Shown one piece after another: positions 15,054 to 27,655 of a DNA stretch of 34,130 nt. Below the pieces are notes generated by a model. The model made no database searches, had not been told where the DNA came from, and saw only the letters and a list, made by a program, of their open reading frames with translations. The stretch's first letter is position 1, and each line of letters begins with the position of its first letter. This DNA is from an uncultured Clostridia bacterium (GTDB lineage: Bacteria; Bacillota; Clostridia; Christensenellales; Pumilibacteraceae): positions 1-34,130 of the forward strand of contig CALWBH010000031.1 in assembly GCA_944376015.1 (NCBI GenBank), written 5' to 3'. The translations under genes were made by a program, and so were the position numbers.

Positions 15054-16400
15054 TTATTCTTTTCTACCGTCATTTTCGATAGCTGCCACGGCAAGCGCGC
15101 ACTCTACCCTTTTTTTCATAAGCTCGCATCCGAGCTTATAAGGCTTTTTTATGTCGCCGCACAACATAATCGAATTTGCCGCACAGCCGCCGCTGCAATA
15201 ATATTTTGCCCAGCAACCGTTGCATTCTTCTTTTTTCGTAAGGTTGGTACAAGCGAACATGACGGGTAAAGCGTCGTCGAAAGTCTTATCGTTAACATTG
15301 CCGATAACGTATTTTTCAAGCCCGTCGAAGCGATGGCAGGGATATATGTTGCCGTTAGGCGCAACGGCGAGATATTCGTCCCCCGCGTTACAACCGACAA
15401 GCCTTTTAGCGGCGCAAGGACCGTTGTATATATCGATGTTAAAGTGAAAAAATCCGAATTCTTTTCCGGCAGCGCGGCGTTTTACATATTCTTCCGCAAG
15501 CGTTTCGTACTGGGCGCAAAGCGTTTCCGTCATGCTTTCCGTAAGCGCAAGCGGATCGCCGTCTGGCAATACGACAGGTTCGAGCGATATTTGTCCGAAA
15601 CCGTAATCGTTCAAAGCGAGCGCGTCTTTTGCAAAATCGGGATTTAGCGCAGTGAACGTACCGCGGACGTAATAGCTTTTATTCCCTCGCTTGCCTACCA
15701 GTTTAAGCGCGTTTTCAAGCACCCTGTCGAAAGAACCTTTTCCGGAAGCGTCCTTTCGGACTGCGTCGTGTACCGTTTTACGTCCGTCTATACTGAGAAC
15801 GACGTTATACATTTCGTCGTTGAAATAATCTATCAATTCGTCTGTCAATGCAAGCGCATTTGTCGTTACGGTAAAACGAAATTCTTTGCCTGCCGCTTTC
15901 TCTATACTGCGTGCGTAATCCACCGTAGCTTTTACGGCTTTCATATTGAGAGTGGGTTCGCCGCCGAAAAAGTCCACTTCGAGTCTTTTGCGCTTTCCGC
16001 TTTTTTCAATAAGAAAGTCTATAGCGTTCCGAGCGGTGCTCTCGCTCATAAAGTCAAGTGCGCCGTGATACTGCCCGTCGTCCGCAAAACAGTATTTGCA
16101 ACGCAGGTTGCAACCGTGCGCAATGTTGAGACAAAGCGCTTTGACTATACCTTTGTATTCAGGCTCGGGATGCACGGGTTCCGCCGTAAAAAGCACGCCG
16201 TCGGAAACAAGCGTATCTATTTCGCTTTCCGACTCTGCGATCTCTTCTTTCGTATAACGAGAAAAATCTCCCGTTGCTTCAGCAAGAGGAGATATCCTTT
16301 TCTCTATCAATTTTGCGGTAAGTTCATCGGTTTCGAAAAAAGAGCCGCTTTCGACGTCGAGAACGAACCATCGCCCTAAACATTTATAAACGTGTACCAT
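15054..16400 (-). CDS. scfB: SCIFF peptide radical SAM/SPASM maturase (thioether-forming)
   Basis: A 448-residue radical SAM enzyme of the SCIFF maturase family (CteB-like), which installs thioether bonds in the six-cysteine SCIFF peptide. The N-terminal ~85 residues resemble a peptide-recognition (RRE-like) domain. The SAM cluster motif CNLRCKYC gives Cys97, Cys101 and Cys104; DFFGGEPTLN follows at 143-152. The C-terminal SPASM region supplies Cys329, Cys337, Cys355, Cys384, Cys393, Cys396, Cys402, Cys406, Cys414 and Cys425 for two auxiliary clusters. It begins four bases after the precursor stop (TAAACGAATG) with only a weak ribosome site, so translation is probably coupled to scfA. The adjacent precursor makes the assignment firm. 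Confidence 0.95.
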   Translation of the reverse strand: MVHVYKCLGRWFVLDVESGSFFETDELTAKLIEKRISPLAEATGDFSRYTKEEIAESESEIDTLVSDGVLFTAEPVHPEPEYKGIVKALCLNIAHGCNLRCKYCFADDGQYHGALDFMSESTARNAIDFLIEKSGKRKRLEVDFFGGEPTLNMKAVKATVDYARSIEKAAGKEFRFTVTTNALALTDELIDYFNDEMYNVVLSIDGRKTVHDAVRKDASGKGSFDRVLENALKLVGKRGNKSYYVRGTFTALNPDFAKDALALNDYGFGQISLEPVVLPDGDPLALTESMTETLCAQYETLAEEYVKRRAAGKEFGFFHFNIDIYNGPCAAKRLVGCNAGDEYLAVAPNGNIYPCHRFDGLEKYVIGNVNDKTFDDALPVMFACTNLTKKEECNGCWAKYYCSGGCAANSIMLCGDIKKPYKLGCELMKKRVECALAVAAIENDGRKE

Positions 16401-16404
16401 TCGT

Positions 16405-16578
16405 TTATTTTTCCGTTACGGTTTTTTCTGTTCTGTGCGTTTTTTTCTGTTCGCAGGACTGATTTCCAACGGTGCAACTCGTTTTGCATGCAGACTGGCA
16501 TCCGGTCTGACATTCTCCGCAACCCGTTCCCTTTTCTTTGCAAATGGTGTTTGTAGCTATTACTTTAATATGTTTCAT
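16405..16578 (-). CDS. scfA: SCIFF ranthipeptide precursor
   Basis: A 57-residue peptide beginning MKHIKVIATNTIC and containing CGECQTGCQSACKTSC followed by TVGNQSC, the hallmark of SCIFF ('six cysteines in forty-five') precursors. The six family cysteines are Cys20, 23, 27, 31, 35 and 42. By analogy with CteA, a Cys31-Thr36 thioether is the likely product of the adjacent maturase. Two departures are visible: an additional cysteine at residue 13, and about 12-14 hydrophilic residues after the usual end (QKKTHRTEKTVTEK). GGAGG stands eight bases before the ATG at 16578. It has its own promoter and lies directly before the maturase gene. The biological role of SCIFF peptides is still poorly defined; signalling has been proposed. 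Confidence 0.94.
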   Translation of the reverse strand: MKHIKVIATNTICKEKGTGCGECQTGCQSACKTSCTVGNQSCEQKKTHRTEKTVTEK

Positions 16579-18657: not shown

Positions 18658-18732
18658 GGTACCATAGCCAAGCGGTAAGGCGTGGGCCTGCAAAGCCCTG
18701 ATTCCCCGGTTCAAATCCGGGTGGTACCTCCA
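18658..18732 (+). tRNA. tRNA-Cys (anticodon GCA)
   Basis: A full cloverleaf: acceptor GGTACCA/TGGTACC, D arm with GCC/GGC, anticodon loop CTGCAAA (GCA at 18690-18692), T arm CCCGG/CCGGG and encoded CCA. The discriminator is U73, the expected cysteine identity base. The outermost anticodon-stem pair (27-43) is a U-U mismatch. Confidence 0.97.
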
Positions 18733-18736
18733 ATAT

Positions 18737-18822
18737 GCCCGAATGGCGGAATGGCAGACGCGACGGACTTAAAATCCGTTTGTGGAAACACAGTGTCGGT
18801 TCAAGTCCGACTTCGGGCACCA
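18737..18822 (+). tRNA. tRNA-Leu (anticodon UAA)
   Basis: An 86-base class II tRNA with acceptor GCCCGAA/TTCGGGC, anticodon stem ACGGA/TCCGT around CTTAAAA (anticodon TAA at 18770-18772), a long variable arm (TGTGGAAACACA) typical of tRNA-Leu, discriminator A and encoded CCA. It starts four bases after tRNA-Cys, so the two are co-transcribed. Confidence 0.97.
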
Positions 18823-18997: not shown

Positions 18998-20656
18998 TTA
19001 ATCGCCGCGCTCGAAGCCTGCCGTAACTACCGTCATGTCGAGCAATACGTTCCCTTTTTCCGAAAAAACATATCTTACTTCCGCCGCGGCGGTTTCGTAA
19101 ATAGTTCTGCTCATTGAACCGCTTTCGGGAGCCGCCAACGCATGCGCGTGTTCTTTAAGCGGAATTATTTCCAGCTTTTTACCGAAACGTTCGATGACGA
19201 CGCGTTCTGCGTCGTTTCTTTTTATTTTCACTCCGTTATACGTCGCCAGCCTGTACTCCCTGCCGCCTATATAAACAAAAGCGATACAACCCGTAAATCT
19301 CAAACCGAGATACGGAATACGCGCGATAGAAAGCATTACGGAGTTAAAACCGTCCGAAGCCTGAGTCCACAAATATGACGACGGAAAAGACGAACCGAAA
19401 TCCTTTTCGATGTAACCGCTTGCGTTATCGAAGTTAAAAAGCCTGCCGTCTACGGTTATACTGCCGCTTACGTCGTGACGCATTGACAACACGCCGTGTT
19501 TACATTGCATAAAAGGAAACCCAGCGAAAAATCCCATAATATCTTTTTTGGGCGGAGTAATGCCGTTGAATTTTATATTTCCGATCAGAGTATGCCCGTC
19601 ACGCTCTAAAGAAAAAGCTATGCCGTCATACGAAAAGCGGCAACCAGGCAAAGCCACGTCGAAGACGTCTTCTTTTGCGTCAAACTCGTCGGCGTCGAAA
19701 ACAAATTTGAGCGGCTTGTCCGTCCCGGTCACTTGCAACATCGCATAAAGTTTTCCGTTGCTGTCAACATGGTAAGACGGAATAAACGCAAGCACCTCGT
19801 TTTTGTTAAAAAGTTTAAGATACCAACCCTCGAAATAACTTTTTTTACGTCTGTACCCGCTGAAATACAGCAAGGTTCTGTTTCCGTATACAACTCTGCC
19901 TATAACGAAAAATATAAACGTAAGAGCGAGAAAAGCTATCAGAAAATAATTGGGAGTTTCCGAAAACCGAAGAACGAACAGCGTTATGTCCGCCGCAACG
20001 GCATAAAGCATGCTTGCGAGCCCGAAATTAGTCAAACCTCCGCTTCGATAGAAACCGGCAAGCTTGAAACAAAAAACAAAAACCAGCAACAGCGCCGTAA
20101 CTATTTCAAGCGGAACGAAAACTTTCCAGGCGGAAATTTCCGTACTGTACACAACGGGTATCGCCATGGAAAGACAGACTATATAGGCGTAAGAAACGAC
20201 AAGCCTTCCTTTCGTAACGTCGGGACGAAAGAGTCTCGCCGCCGTTACCGTCCTTATCAACATGGACAACAAAAGCGCTCCGTATGAAACGAACTGTAGC
20301 CACAACAAAGTGTAATTGGTATGCGTCATGCCTCCAAGCAGCACCGCTCCTGCCGTTATCGCCATACTGCCGTAATCCGTTTTCTGTTTGTGTTCTTCGG
20401 AACGGGTAAAAAGCAATACGAATACGTACCTGTTTAAAGTAACGGCGGTAATCAGACATCCGAGTAACCCGATCGCCGTCAGAATATGAGTATACCATTG
20501 AACAAAATCGTTCGAATCGTAAAAAATAAATTCCGGATCGACAAGACCCTTTACGAGCGCTATCGTTCTTTCCGCAAAAAGTATTACGACGTATAGCGCG
20601 TAAAACAAAAACACGAAATATTCCGCAATATTCAACTTAGCGTTATTCTTTTTCAT
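18998..20656 (-). CDS. Multi-pass membrane domain fused to a tocopherol-cyclase-like domain
   Basis: A 552-residue protein in two parts. Residues 1-265 hold about seven or eight hydrophobic helices (near 11-30, 54-78, 96-118, 117-137, 152-172, 178-198, 211-231 and 236-258) of no family I recognise. From about 272 the sequence matches the tocopherol-cyclase-like family: YFEGWYLKL (274-282), GYIEKDFGSSFPSSYLWTQ (414-432) and SIARIPYLGLRF (443-454). Bacterial members are usually stand-alone proteins of about 300 residues with no assigned function; plant VTE1 cyclises a prenylquinol. A membrane quinone or lipid role is inference only. The ATG at 20656 overlaps the cation transporter by 14 bases and has no ribosome site, so coupling is likely. 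It is the last gene of the five-gene operon. Confidence 0.82.
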   Translation of the reverse strand: MKKNNAKLNIAEYFVFLFYALYVVILFAERTIALVKGLVDPEFIFYDSNDFVQWYTHILTAIGLLGCLITAVTLNRYVFVLLFTRSEEHKQKTDYGSMAITAGAVLLGGMTHTNYTLLWLQFVSYGALLLSMLIRTVTAARLFRPDVTKGRLVVSYAYIVCLSMAIPVVYSTEISAWKVFVPLEIVTALLLVFVFCFKLAGFYRSGGLTNFGLASMLYAVAADITLFVLRFSETPNYFLIAFLALTFIFFVIGRVVYGNRTLLYFSGYRRKKSYFEGWYLKLFNKNEVLAFIPSYHVDSNGKLYAMLQVTGTDKPLKFVFDADEFDAKEDVFDVALPGCRFSYDGIAFSLERDGHTLIGNIKFNGITPPKKDIMGFFAGFPFMQCKHGVLSMRHDVSGSITVDGRLFNFDNASGYIEKDFGSSFPSSYLWTQASDGFNSVMLSIARIPYLGLRFTGCIAFVYIGGREYRLATYNGVKIKRNDAERVVIERFGKKLEIIPLKEHAHALAAPESGSMSRTIYETAAAEVRYVFSEKGNVLLDMTVVTAGFERGD

Positions 20657-21614
20657 TGTTATTTACTTTTTCACCTTCCGAGTTACCGTCGGACGTCCCC
20701 GCGTCCGAATCTGTGGACATCACATAGGGATTTACATGGACCATGCAATGTTTTACGTCAGTAAAATTATGTTCTATAAGGTCGTGTACGTTCTCCGCAA
20801 TAGTGTGGGCTTTTTTCAATGCGGCGTTTTCATCCACGGAAATTTCTATTTCCACATACACTTTATTGCCGAAAATACGCGTCTTTATAACGTCAAGCGA
20901 CATCACACCGTCCTGCGCTAAGATGAGTTCGCGCATTTTGTCTTCCGTGCTGCGGTCGCACGCTCTGTCCACCATCTTGCCTATAGAGCTTCTGAATATA
21001 TCTATCGCCACTTTAAGCACGAAAAGGCAAATAATTATCGACGCTATGGAATCGAGTATTTTTGCCCCGAGCATCGAACCGAGTATGCCCGCAAACGCGC
21101 CCACGGAAGAAAAAGCGTCGGATCTGTGATGCCAGGCGTCAGCCATAAGCGCGTCCGACTTTATAAGTTTCGCCGCGGAACGAGTATACCAGTACATCCC
21201 TTCTTTCACCGCTATGGAAATTATAGCGGCTATTAATGCCGGCCATCCGGGGAATGTCTGCACATACTCGCGGTTCACTATATTCATAATTCCAGCGTAA
21301 CCCATCGCAACACCGGTACCGCCGAGCACTATGGCGAGTATTATCGCCGCAACGCATTCCATACGCTCATGTCCGTAAGGATGATCTTTGTCCGAAGCCT
21401 TCGCGCTGATTTTTATCCCGATAATTACAATTATCGTACTGAAAACGTCCGATGCGGAATGTATTGCGTCGGATATCATGGCGCTTGACGAATCGAGTAT
21501 ACCGACGATGAGTTTCCCGCCCGAAAGCACGGCGTTAACGATAATAGTGACTATCGATACGGTTATCGCTATTTTCGCAACGTCGTGACTTTTCGTTTCT
21601 TTGGATTCGGTCAT
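20643..21614 (-). CDS. Cation diffusion facilitator (CDF) family transporter
   Basis: A 323-residue divalent-metal/proton antiporter. The transport-site pairs are visible: DAIHSASDVF in TM2 (His52, Asp56) and ADAWHHRSDAFSS in TM5 (His162, Asp166), with HPYGHERMECV (78-88) between. Six membrane helices occupy about 15-205, followed by the cytoplasmic metal-sensing ferredoxin-like domain, then a hydrophilic Ser/Asp/Asn-rich tail. The substrate could be Zn, Mn or Fe; an HxxxD arrangement does not decide it. Its start lies four bases after the purB stop, without a clear ribosome site, and its end overlaps the next gene by 14 bases. It is translated as part of the purB operon. Confidence 0.94.
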   Translation of the reverse strand: MTESKETKSHDVAKIAITVSIVTIIVNAVLSGGKLIVGILDSSSAMISDAIHSASDVFSTIIVIIGIKISAKASDKDHPYGHERMECVAAIILAIVLGGTGVAMGYAGIMNIVNREYVQTFPGWPALIAAIISIAVKEGMYWYTRSAAKLIKSDALMADAWHHRSDAFSSVGAFAGILGSMLGAKILDSIASIIICLFVLKVAIDIFRSSIGKMVDRACDRSTEDKMRELILAQDGVMSLDVIKTRIFGNKVYVEIEISVDENAALKKAHTIAENVHDLIEHNFTDVKHCMVHVNPYVMSTDSDAGTSDGNSEGEKVNNNEKE

Positions 21615-21618
21615 AATT

Positions 21619-23046
21619 TCACACTTTGATTTCGGTCTCTTCCGATGATATTTCGTTTGCGCTCAGTATCGGCAATATATGCTGCGAAACGAATTCTTCC
21701 GTCTGTTTATCGGCACGCCCGATGAAATTGGACGGATCCATTATCGAATCGATATCGTTTTTAACCGCAGCGAAAGCTTTATCCGCTTTTATTCTTGAAA
21801 TAAGGTCGTTCTCGCCGCCTTCCTGCTTTACCACCTTACCTGCGTCCATTGAATGACGCCTTATAAGCTCGTGCAGCTCCTGACGGTTGCCGCCCGCCTT
21901 CACGCACTCCATAAGTATTGTTTCGGTAGCCATAAAAGGAAGCTCCGCCGCTATATGTTTGGAGATAACTTTATCGTAAACTACCATTCCGCCGGTAATG
22001 TTAACGTAAAGATTGAGTATTCCGTCTACGGCAAGGAATGCCTGCGGTATCGTTATTCTTTTGTTTGCACTGTCGTCGAGCGTTCTCTCGAACCATTGAG
22101 TGGACGCGGTTATCGCTTCGTTTTCCGGCAATGTAATCACATATCTCGCAAGCGCGCATATTCGTTCGCTGCGCATGGGATTGCGTTTGTAAGCCATTGC
22201 GGAAGAACCTATCTGATTCTTTTCGAAAGGCTCTTCCATTTCTTTCATATTCTGTAAAATCCGAAGATCGTTTGCGAATTTATATGCGCTCTGAGCGATC
22301 ATGGACAATACGCAAAGCACGTTATAATCAAGTTTCCTGGTATAAGTCTGCCCGGATACCGCAAAAGCGGAATCGAATCCCATTTTTTCGACCACATACT
22401 TTTCGAGCGCCTTAACTTTTTCTCCGTCACCTTCGAAAAGCGTTAAAAAGCTCGCTTGCGTACCCGTAGTGCCTTTAACGCCGCGCAGTTTGAGTCCGCT
22501 GATGACCGCGCAAAGATTTTCATAATCCATAAGCAGATCCTGAAGCCACAAACAAGCGCGTTTCCCGACGGTGGTAAGCTGCGCCGGTTGAAGATGAGTA
22601 AAGCCGAGCGTAGGCATGCTCTTATATTTCAATGCAAAATCGGACAGTTTTTTCATCACTTGAAGCAGCTTCTTTTTTACAAGCATAAGCGCTTCGCGCA
22701 TAAGTATAATCTCGGCGTTGTCGGTAACGTAACAGCTGGTAGCGCCGAGATGAATGATTGGCATTGCTTTGGGAGCAAGCGCGCCGAACGCGTAAACGTG
22801 CGCCATAACGTCGTGACGTACTTCCTTTTCTTTTGCGGCGGCAACGTCGTAGTTGATATCCGAGACATGCTCTTTCATTTCGGCGATCTGCTCGTCCGAT
22901 ATATTGATACCGAGCGCTTTCTCCCCTTCGGCAAGCGCTATCCACAGTTTACGCCAAGTGGTGAATCTGTTGTCGTCCGAAAAAACACCGGACATTTCCG
23001 CAGACGCATATCTTGTTATAAGAGGGTTTTCGTATACGTTTTTCAT
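21619..23046 (-). CDS. purB: Adenylosuccinate lyase
   Basis: A 475-residue member of the fumarase/aspartase superfamily. It cleaves SAICAR in purine synthesis and adenylosuccinate in AMP synthesis, in both cases releasing fumarate. The flexible signature loop is GSSAMAYKRNPMRSE (280-294), with the catalytic serine in it. HLGATSCYVTDN (99-110) and GFTHLQPAQ (148-156, His151) complete the active site. The length is typical of the longer lyase type found in Clostridia and eukaryotes. AAGGAG precedes the ATG at 23046. It follows the dipeptidase by nine bases and precedes the cation transporter by four, an arrangement with no obvious metabolic link. Confidence 0.97.
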   Translation of the reverse strand: MKNVYENPLITRYASAEMSGVFSDDNRFTTWRKLWIALAEGEKALGINISDEQIAEMKEHVSDINYDVAAAKEKEVRHDVMAHVYAFGALAPKAMPIIHLGATSCYVTDNAEIILMREALMLVKKKLLQVMKKLSDFALKYKSMPTLGFTHLQPAQLTTVGKRACLWLQDLLMDYENLCAVISGLKLRGVKGTTGTQASFLTLFEGDGEKVKALEKYVVEKMGFDSAFAVSGQTYTRKLDYNVLCVLSMIAQSAYKFANDLRILQNMKEMEEPFEKNQIGSSAMAYKRNPMRSERICALARYVITLPENEAITASTQWFERTLDDSANKRITIPQAFLAVDGILNLYVNITGGMVVYDKVISKHIAAELPFMATETILMECVKAGGNRQELHELIRRHSMDAGKVVKQEGGENDLISRIKADKAFAAVKNDIDSIMDPSNFIGRADKQTEEFVSQHILPILSANEISSEETEIKV

Positions 23047-25603: not shown

Positions 25604-27655
25604 TTACTTCTTGACTTCGAGATCTTTGAGCAAGTCCGCAAAAGGATTGTTGCCTGCGTCCTCGCTCCATTCCGCTTCGGCGTCTTTTTCGACGTCTTTC
25701 TTTCTGGGAGCGCGGGATTTGGTATCTTTCTTTTCGGGCTTGGCTTTTTCCTCCGCCGGAAGCTCGGGCATACATGCTTTTGCACTGAGAGTGAACTTCT
25801 TGTGCTCGGAGTCTATTGCAAGGACTTTTACTTCGACTTCGTCGCCCACTTTGTAAATGTCTTCGATATTCTTGACATAAGTGTTGGAAGCTTCGGACAC
25901 ATGGACAAGTCCTTCCACACCGGGTTCGATCTCGACAAACGCGCCGAACGACATTATAGACGTGATCTTACCGGTGAACACCGAACCTACGGGATGCGCT
26001 TCGACGGCTAAATCAAACGGATGCTTTTGAAGCTGTTTGTAACCGAGAGAAACTTTGCCCTTTTCTCTGTCTGCTTTAAGCACGACGAAATCGTATTTCT
26101 TACCGACGTGAAGGATATCTTCGATAGACTTGAATTTGGTCCAGGAAACGTCACTTATATGGACAAGGCAATCAAAACCGTCAACGCTGACAAACGCGCC
26201 GAAACCGGAAATACTCTTTACTTTACCGTTTACGATAACGCCGGGTACGACGTTCGTCCAGAATACATCTTCTTTTTCTTTACGTTCTCTTTCGAGAATT
26301 ATTTTCTGGCTCGCTACGATTCTGCGTTTTTCGTCGTTAATCTCAAGCTGCGTAAGTCTGAGCGTCTTACCGATGAACGGTTTAAGGTCGCGAATATATT
26401 TTTCTTTAATCTGAGAAGCAGGCACAAAAACCGTATAAGTACCGAGATGACCGAGCAAACCGCCTTTCGTATCGCGCTCTACCGTAAGCTCGAACACTTC
26501 GCCGTTACGAATAGTTTCAACGATCTTGTTGCCTTCTTTGATCTTGTCCACTTTTTTCTTTGAGAAAAGGTAAACGCCGCCGTCCGCTTTAGCGTTAAGC
26601 AGAATTACGTCGAGCACTTCCCCTTCGGGATAATCGACGGGATTATACGAGTCGTCCAACGTCGCTTCTTCGGCAGGAATAAAGCCGTCAAGTTTTCCGT
26701 CGAAATTTACGGTAATACCTTTTTCGTCGGCACCGGTCACCGTAACTTTCATTTGCTTGCCTTCTCTCAGTTTGCCGTTTGTTCCAACGGCGTCGACCGC
26801 TTGCAGAAATTCTTCATTCTGTGCATCGGTAAAGTTGTTTCCCATGTATTGAATTACCTCCGTTATCAACTCCTCGGGAGTCGACGCGCCGGCGACGATT
26901 CCTATTTTATCGTCGGCATTAAATTTTATTCTTTCAACGTCCTTTACGTCGCTCACGAGATATGCCGTACAACGTTTTTCGCATATATCTTTCAGCTTAA
27001 GCGTATTGGAACTTTTGACGTCGCCTATGACAAGCACTTTATCGCAGATCCGCGACAAAGATTCCGCTTCACTCTGACGTTCTTGTGTAGTATAACAAAT
27101 TGTGTCAAATATTTCAACTGTTTTTAATCTATCTTTTGCAAATTTATCGATTATATTTGAATATTTTTGCGCGGAAGCCGTAGTCTGAGCCACTACGCAC
27201 ACTTTTTCATACCCCTTGAGTCGCTCGATATCGTAATTTTCATCGATTATGTCCGCGGTGTACCCGCACAAAGAGTTGATTCCTATTACTTCGGGATGAT
27301 CTTTTTTTCCGAATATCACGATTTTGTAGCCTTCGGCATATTTTTGAGCTACGATATTTCTTGTCTTCTGAACGAACGGACAAGTAGCGTCAACGATATG
27401 AAGCCCTTTCGCTTTCGCCTTTTCTATACTTTCGGCAGGCGCACCGTGAGAACGGATTACCACCGTTCCGCAATCTATTTCGGAAACATCGGATATCGCG
27501 CGTATACCCTCCGAAGCAAGACGATCGACGATAACGGAATTATGTATAAGCTCGCCCAAAGTATAGACAGGCGCGGCGTATTCGCCGCGCGCAAGCGCTA
27601 TCGATCTTTTTACCCCGTAACAAAAACCGAGATTTTCCGCTTTGTATATGACCAA
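25604..27655 (-). CDS. ispH: Fused 4-hydroxy-3-methylbut-2-enyl diphosphate reductase (IspH) and ribosomal protein S1
   Basis: A 683-residue two-part protein. Residues 1-275 are IspH (LytB), the last enzyme of the MEP isoprenoid pathway, with iron-sulphur cysteines Cys12, Cys92 and Cys187 and active-site segments RSHGAP and KKDHPE. Residues ~295-630 contain four S1 RNA-binding repeats, the third and fourth closest to consensus (SGFGAFVSVDGFDCLVHIS and MSFGAFVEIEPGVEGLVHVS). A basic/acidic tail follows, rich in Lys, Asp and Glu. This IspH-S1 fusion is known in Clostridia, so it is not a local artefact. The start is a TTG at 27655, supported by GGGAG seven bases upstream and by position, one base after the plsC stop. 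It is the last gene of the long operon. Confidence 0.96.
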   Translation of the reverse strand: MVIYKAENLGFCYGVKRSIALARGEYAAPVYTLGELIHNSVIVDRLASEGIRAISDVSEIDCGTVVIRSHGAPAESIEKAKAKGLHIVDATCPFVQKTRNIVAQKYAEGYKIVIFGKKDHPEVIGINSLCGYTADIIDENYDIERLKGYEKVCVVAQTTASAQKYSNIIDKFAKDRLKTVEIFDTICYTTQERQSEAESLSRICDKVLVIGDVKSSNTLKLKDICEKRCTAYLVSDVKDVERIKFNADDKIGIVAGASTPEELITEVIQYMGNNFTDAQNEEFLQAVDAVGTNGKLREGKQMKVTVTGADEKGITVNFDGKLDGFIPAEEATLDDSYNPVDYPEGEVLDVILLNAKADGGVYLFSKKKVDKIKEGNKIVETIRNGEVFELTVERDTKGGLLGHLGTYTVFVPASQIKEKYIRDLKPFIGKTLRLTQLEINDEKRRIVASQKIILERERKEKEDVFWTNVVPGVIVNGKVKSISGFGAFVSVDGFDCLVHISDVSWTKFKSIEDILHVGKKYDFVVLKADREKGKVSLGYKQLQKHPFDLAVEAHPVGSVFTGKITSIMSFGAFVEIEPGVEGLVHVSEASNTYVKNIEDIYKVGDEVEVKVLAIDSEHKKFTLSAKACMPELPAEEKAKPEKKDTKSRAPRKKDVEKDAEAEWSEDAGNNPFADLLKDLEVKK

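Follow-up and report, generated by a model that had tools for sequence, protein, structure and literature searches.

The closest described counterparts of the protein reported here belong to the tocopherol cyclase family and to a set of enzymes with the same double-barrel fold. VTE1, the tocopherol cyclase of plants and cyanobacteria, matches it at the level of the family: the VTE1 motifs YxEKNWG and FPxxWxW correspond to YIEKDFG and FPSSYLW, with Asn replaced by Asp and Trp by Phe in the first of these. VTE1 is not known to have the transmembrane domain described below, and genes of the prenylquinone pathway were not found in the genus that carries our protein. Bacterial members of the family (PF14249) are stand-alone proteins of about 300 residues with no membrane domain, whereas our protein has one; among them, a 'tocopherol cyclase family protein' of Pusillibacter faecalis (WP_228300613.1) is 39% identical to it over residues 264-549, the whole barrel. 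The possible function of tocopherol-cyclase-like proteins in heterotrophic bacteria 'deserves further study' (PMC4963081). Kievitone hydratase, the pericyclases CghA, Fsa2 and Phm7, the 25-phosphosteroid lyase and AttH NE1406 share the double-barrel fold of our structural model, and the carotenoid 1,2-hydratase CrtC may be likened to our barrel by family. These double-barrel relatives differ from our protein in being only 8-12% identical to it, in catalyzing various other reactions, and in having solved chains without a membrane domain.

Here we describe a gene in which such a barrel is joined to an eight-helix membrane domain, found in a 34,130-nucleotide stretch of DNA (the window, meaning the whole stretch that was analyzed). 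The fusion is well supported as a new, genus-level domain architecture within that branch of the tocopherol cyclase family which is known from bacteria.

The fused gene and its neighborhood

The locus comprises the following features:

18658-18822 (+): tRNA-Cys and tRNA-Leu genes, between the fusion and ytxC
18998..20656 (-): fusion gene of 552 aa, eight-TM domain plus tocopherol-cyclase-like barrel (open reading frame, Pfam, same frame in relatives)
20643..20656 (-): 14-base overlap of the CDF stop and the fusion start (ORF coordinates)
20643..21614 (-): CDF cation transporter gene upstream of the fusion, an adjacency not conserved in the genus
21619..23046 (-): purB, the conserved upstream neighbor (scans of the window and related loci)

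The reading frame of the fusion opens with ATG, and a Pfam scan placed Tocopherol_cycl (PF14249) on residues 370-435 (6.9e-10; 39 bits, with a cut-off of 26.6). Residues 1-258 had no match in Pfam, NCBIfam or PDB sequences, an NCBIfam scan of the whole protein returned no match, and fewer than 10 residues separate the last transmembrane helix from the barrel. The first-pass annotation had assigned the C-terminal half to the tocopherol cyclase family and had called the N-terminal half an unrecognized membrane domain of seven or eight helices; the Pfam score and a model match over the whole barrel bear out the former, and the latter stands with eight helices. It had also raised the possibility that an assembly error joined two genes. 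This explanation was rejected, as the frame is uninterrupted in seven further species (G046, G047, G041, G040, G035, G045 and G036; 37-72% identity). Because independent genomes carry the same continuous frame, chance and assembly error are both excluded, and the fusion is genuine.

Genes for an M19 peptidase, purB, the CDF transporter and the fusion follow one another on one strand with successive gaps of 9, 4 and -14 bases. As the two tRNA genes behind the fusion lie on the opposite strand, this operon probably ends with it. In eight of the nine genomes with the fusion, purB stands directly upstream of it or upstream of the CDF gene, and ytxC-yajC-scfB-secDF lies downstream in most of them; the downstream genes differ in G035, and in G036 the fusion sits on a short contig. 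The overlap with the metal transporter gene measures exactly 14 bases, as first reported, but a functional tie to that transporter is not supported: only the window and its sister species G046 have the CDF gene placed between purB and the fusion, and no CDF of the window type was found in the seven remaining genomes with the fusion, so the link is incidental.

Elsewhere in the window, a SCIFF-type six-cysteine peptide (MKHIKVIATNTICKEKGTGCGECQTGCQSACKTSCTVGNQSCEQKK..., 16405-16578 (-)) is encoded directly before a ScfB thioether maturase (15054-16400 (-); TIGR03974, 3e-168), and an ORF at 25604-27655 (-) resembles, by eye, IspH followed by S1 repeats.

Distribution of the fusion and of its separate halves

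The fusion is carried by 9 of the 14 genomes of the genus, comprising that of the window (G000), the seven other intact cases and an eighth further species, G039, where it is cut by contig ends. No match was found in G037, G038, G043 and G044, all four of which are incomplete, as are the genomes of the genus in general (73-95%). Among the 74 genomes of the family that were searched, the fused form was confined to this genus, and a scan of genome contigs for the fusion matched in the sister species only. Across the order, a PF14249 match was present in 39 of 396 genomes (about 10%) and a match to the N-terminal domain in 19 of 396, in scattered genera, and no protein outside the genus combined both halves among those inspected. 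Wider searches, of 391 genomes from the class and a further set of 398 from the phylum, added no convincing match to the N-terminal domain, and none was found in viral contigs or plasmids; the plasmids held stand-alone relatives of the barrel only and no fusion. Longer barrel-type ORFs in G095, G182 and G105 were rejected as other fusions, as they had no match to the transmembrane domain and their extra length seems to come from early start codons.

Outside the genus the halves are thus found only apart, and the fusion is therefore a joining, at the level of the genus, of two parts that occur separately elsewhere. In a tree of the barrels the genus formed a single group (support 95/92). That the fusion is unusual beside its stand-alone bacterial relatives, as had been proposed, is supported; its CDF neighbor was not conserved across the nine genomes.

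A separate arrangement was seen in G042, where the barrel stands alone behind a CDF gene and an N-type protein is encoded on another contig. This N-type protein was rejected as a fission product of the fusion because it clustered with a stand-alone protein of G364 (support 99/99).

The C-terminal barrel and its candidate substrates

Three features mark the C-terminal half:

19001..19867 (-): tocopherol-cyclase/CrtC/AttH-type double lipocalin-like barrel, residues 264-552 (Pfam and model comparison)
19394..19414 (-): YIEKDFG, residues 415-421, counterpart of plant YxEKNWG (alignment of 23 homologues)
19496..19498 (-): H387, invariant, 28 residues before Y415

The two-domain model of the C-terminal half had a pLDDT of 75. 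Its residues 264-552 matched CghA, Fsa2, Phm7, AttH NE1406, kievitone hydratase and the 25-phosphosteroid lyase with VIA-align Z scores of 15-19 (about 243-267 residues aligned, rmsd 3.3-4.2), the next unrelated row reaching Z 6.2, and Foldseek gave a probability of 1.00; a search of PDB sequences with the barrel profile returned chance matches only. Judged by the model, this half is a full-length double lipocalin-like barrel of the AttH/kievitone hydratase/CrtC superfamily. By its sequence the protein belongs to PF14249 as a sequence family only; since no UbiA prenyltransferase turned up in the genus (see below), we do not file it as a tocopherol cyclase.

Across 23 homologues, 23 alignment columns are invariant, including H387, Y415, E417, D419 and G421. 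YxEKNWG is the likely catalytic motif of the plant cyclases and is 'more or less' kept in heterotrophs (PMC4963081); in our protein its Y, E, K and G are retained, D419 stands for the Asn and F420 for the Trp. In CrtC, alanine mutants showed His239, Trp241, Tyr266 and Asp268 to be essential, Asp268 being the proposed proton donor for the double bond (PMC4717167). The spacing of H387, Y415 and E417 (28/30) resembles that in CrtC (27/29), and the position of the CrtC Trp is occupied by V389. Loss of the Trp in both comparisons speaks against the enzyme reading. Judged by spacing and motif, E417 may be the counterpart of Asp268, and H387, Y415 and E417 may form the same catalytic set as in CrtC.

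AttH NE1406 has been proposed to be a ligand-binding, membrane-peripheral barrel (PMC2954199), and the barrel of the fusion might similarly be a catalytically idle, lipid-binding lipocalin, with the membrane domain as sensor or transporter. The N-terminal profile did weakly match a single sensor protein, of the MASE3-GGDEF type, in G916 (L130 820-2079; E 2.2e-6 per genome); however, hhalign gave a probability of 1.4% and the MASE3 profile PF17159 matched none of the 23 members at E<=1, so that a relation to such sensors was not upheld. With its catalytic-type residues invariant in 23 of 23 homologues, we consider an idle barrel unlikely.

The pathway genes constrain the substrate of an active barrel. 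UbiA prenyltransferase (PF01040) was found in 0 of the 14 genomes of the genus, with controls positive in 14 of 14, and squalene/phytoene synthase (SQS_PSY) likewise in 0 of 14, with positive controls. As the genomes are incomplete (73-95%), the lack of UbiA carries weight only through its recurrence in all 14. With neither gene found in any of the 14 genomes, it is unlikely that the substrate is a tocopherol, quinone or carotenoid of the cell's own making, and a plain tocopherol or plastochromanol cyclase acting in a home-made pathway, for which PF14249 membership would speak, is barely credible and close to refuted. The suggestion of the first-pass annotation that the fusion brings the barrel near prenyl or quinone substrates survives in part: a barrel placed at a membrane-dissolved lipid is the best reading, and home-made prenyl compounds or quinones are not supported as substrates.

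Chromanols and quinones could still be supplied from outside. The barrel might act on tocopherol, tocopherolquinone or menaquinone derived from the diet or from neighbors, closing or opening a chromanol ring, with an FAD/Rieske oxidoreductase setting the quinone redox state in relatives of the family. Rumen Butyrivibrio holds alpha-tocopherolquinol, and stand-alone relatives overlap or abut a gene for an FAD (DAO) and Rieske oxidoreductase in G071, G065, G070 and G066 as well as in Monoglobus pectinilyticus, a member of another order. These loci, drawn from M. pectinilyticus and from two genera of this family, are:

L032 5547-7741: stand-alone barrel and FAD (DAO)/Rieske genes
L033 8514-10734: the same
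L034 1165-3421: the same
L037 9816-12435: the same
L132 4698-6786: the same

The paired genes likely form a two-enzyme unit, and their adjacency favors redox-active substrates in those other genera. However, no FAD/Rieske gene was seen beside the fusion at the loci viewed in its own genus, and we found no literature tying these tocopherol-cyclase-like proteins to quinones and nothing direct on tocopherol cyclases or tocopherolquinol in gut clostridia. For the fusion, such exogenous chemistry appears rather improbable.

If prenylquinones and carotenoids made by the cell are thus probably not the substrate, the candidates are undecaprenyl lipids, unsaturated or vinyl-ether lipids that the cell itself makes, and gut-derived lipids. 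A DUF2229 protein is encoded in all 14 genomes, with and without the fusion, and in most of them its frame runs to about 1450 codons, a size suggestive of the plasmalogen enzyme PlsA; vinyl-ether lipids are therefore possible substrates, though not singled out. A barrel joined to the membrane, in a genus where prenylquinone and carotenoid genes were not found, narrows the range of substrates and points to lipids dissolved in the membrane.

The membrane domain and a proposed mechanism

Two features mark the N-terminal half:

19883..20656 (-): eight-helix membrane domain, residues 1-258 (model and profile searches; family not seen beyond this order in any sample searched)
20318..20335 (-): GGMTHT, residues 108-113, at the predicted extracytoplasmic end of helix 3 (conservation and model)

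The domain was modeled with 23 sequences (pLDDT 92), and eight helices are predicted (residues 10-39, 51-73/76-84, 95-109, 118-140, 149-164, 177-204, 213-230 and 237-257). Pfam matches in this part of the 23 homologues were limited to single weak chance matches. Lys and Arg are enriched in the predicted-inside loops of 22 of 23 members (mean 10.7 vs 2.7), which would place both termini in the cytoplasm and, with the short linker, the barrel on the inner surface of the membrane.

GGMTHT is the most conserved motif of the domain. Its conserved polar residues, which lie inside helices or where these reach the outer side, include T60 and, kept by almost every member, E29, R30, H112, Q121, Y125, E184 and N236. 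This conservation suggests that the domain is more than an anchor and that it probably binds or presents a lipid. The fused protein of G036 (L029 813-2435) keeps all barrel motifs but has an extremely divergent membrane domain, without GGMxHT, E184 and other polar residues, and a specific role of these residues is thus not universal.

Motifs and model together make acid/base chemistry on a membrane lipid the likely mechanism. In its fuller form, which we put first although tentatively, an acid/base enzyme tethered to the membrane and needing no cofactor (a hydratase, a cyclase or the reverse) would act on an unsaturated lipid of the membrane. The chain would run from a cytoplasmic N-terminus to a cytoplasmic C-terminus, with the barrel at the inner face. 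From the inner leaflet the barrel would take up a lipid whose double bond is isolated or activated. Protonation of this bond would fall to E417, together with Y415 and H387, and either water or an internal hydroxyl would then capture the cation, giving hydration, cyclization or the reverse with no cofactor. The transmembrane domain would hold the barrel on the membrane and would probably bind or present the lipid.

The membrane domain might instead be an XKR-like scramblase or flippase that feeds the barrel with lipids. XKR proteins have eight transmembrane helices in two repeats (PMC8298096) of four helices each, along with two half-inserted helices. In VIA-align, rXKR9 (Z 9.8, 227 residues) and XKR8 (Z 9.4, 232 residues; rmsd 4.4 each) headed the rows, whereas the remaining chains with an alignment longer than 135 residues reached a Z of about 5.5; the tool itself notes, however, that values below about 13 are common for helical bundles, and the likeness falls short of excluding chance. 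Foldseek found nothing in the PDB (best E 0.55), and neither a sequence match to XKR nor an internal sequence repeat was found, which leaves this assignment very doubtful. A broader version, only slightly less improbable, is a prokaryotic module that moves or presents lipids, possibly distantly XKR-like, and delivers them into an acid-catalytic cytoplasmic barrel, the single chain then modifying gut-derived or plasmalogen-type lipids in anaerobes apparently devoid of prenylquinones.

The N-terminal domain represents an uncatalogued membrane protein family, which within the samples searched was confined to this order of Clostridia. In G364 a stand-alone gene for it (L093 9903-10682) lies about 3 kb from that of a distant tocopherol-cyclase/CrtC-like protein with the motif YADKNWG (L093 5532-6704), with opposite-strand genes between them.
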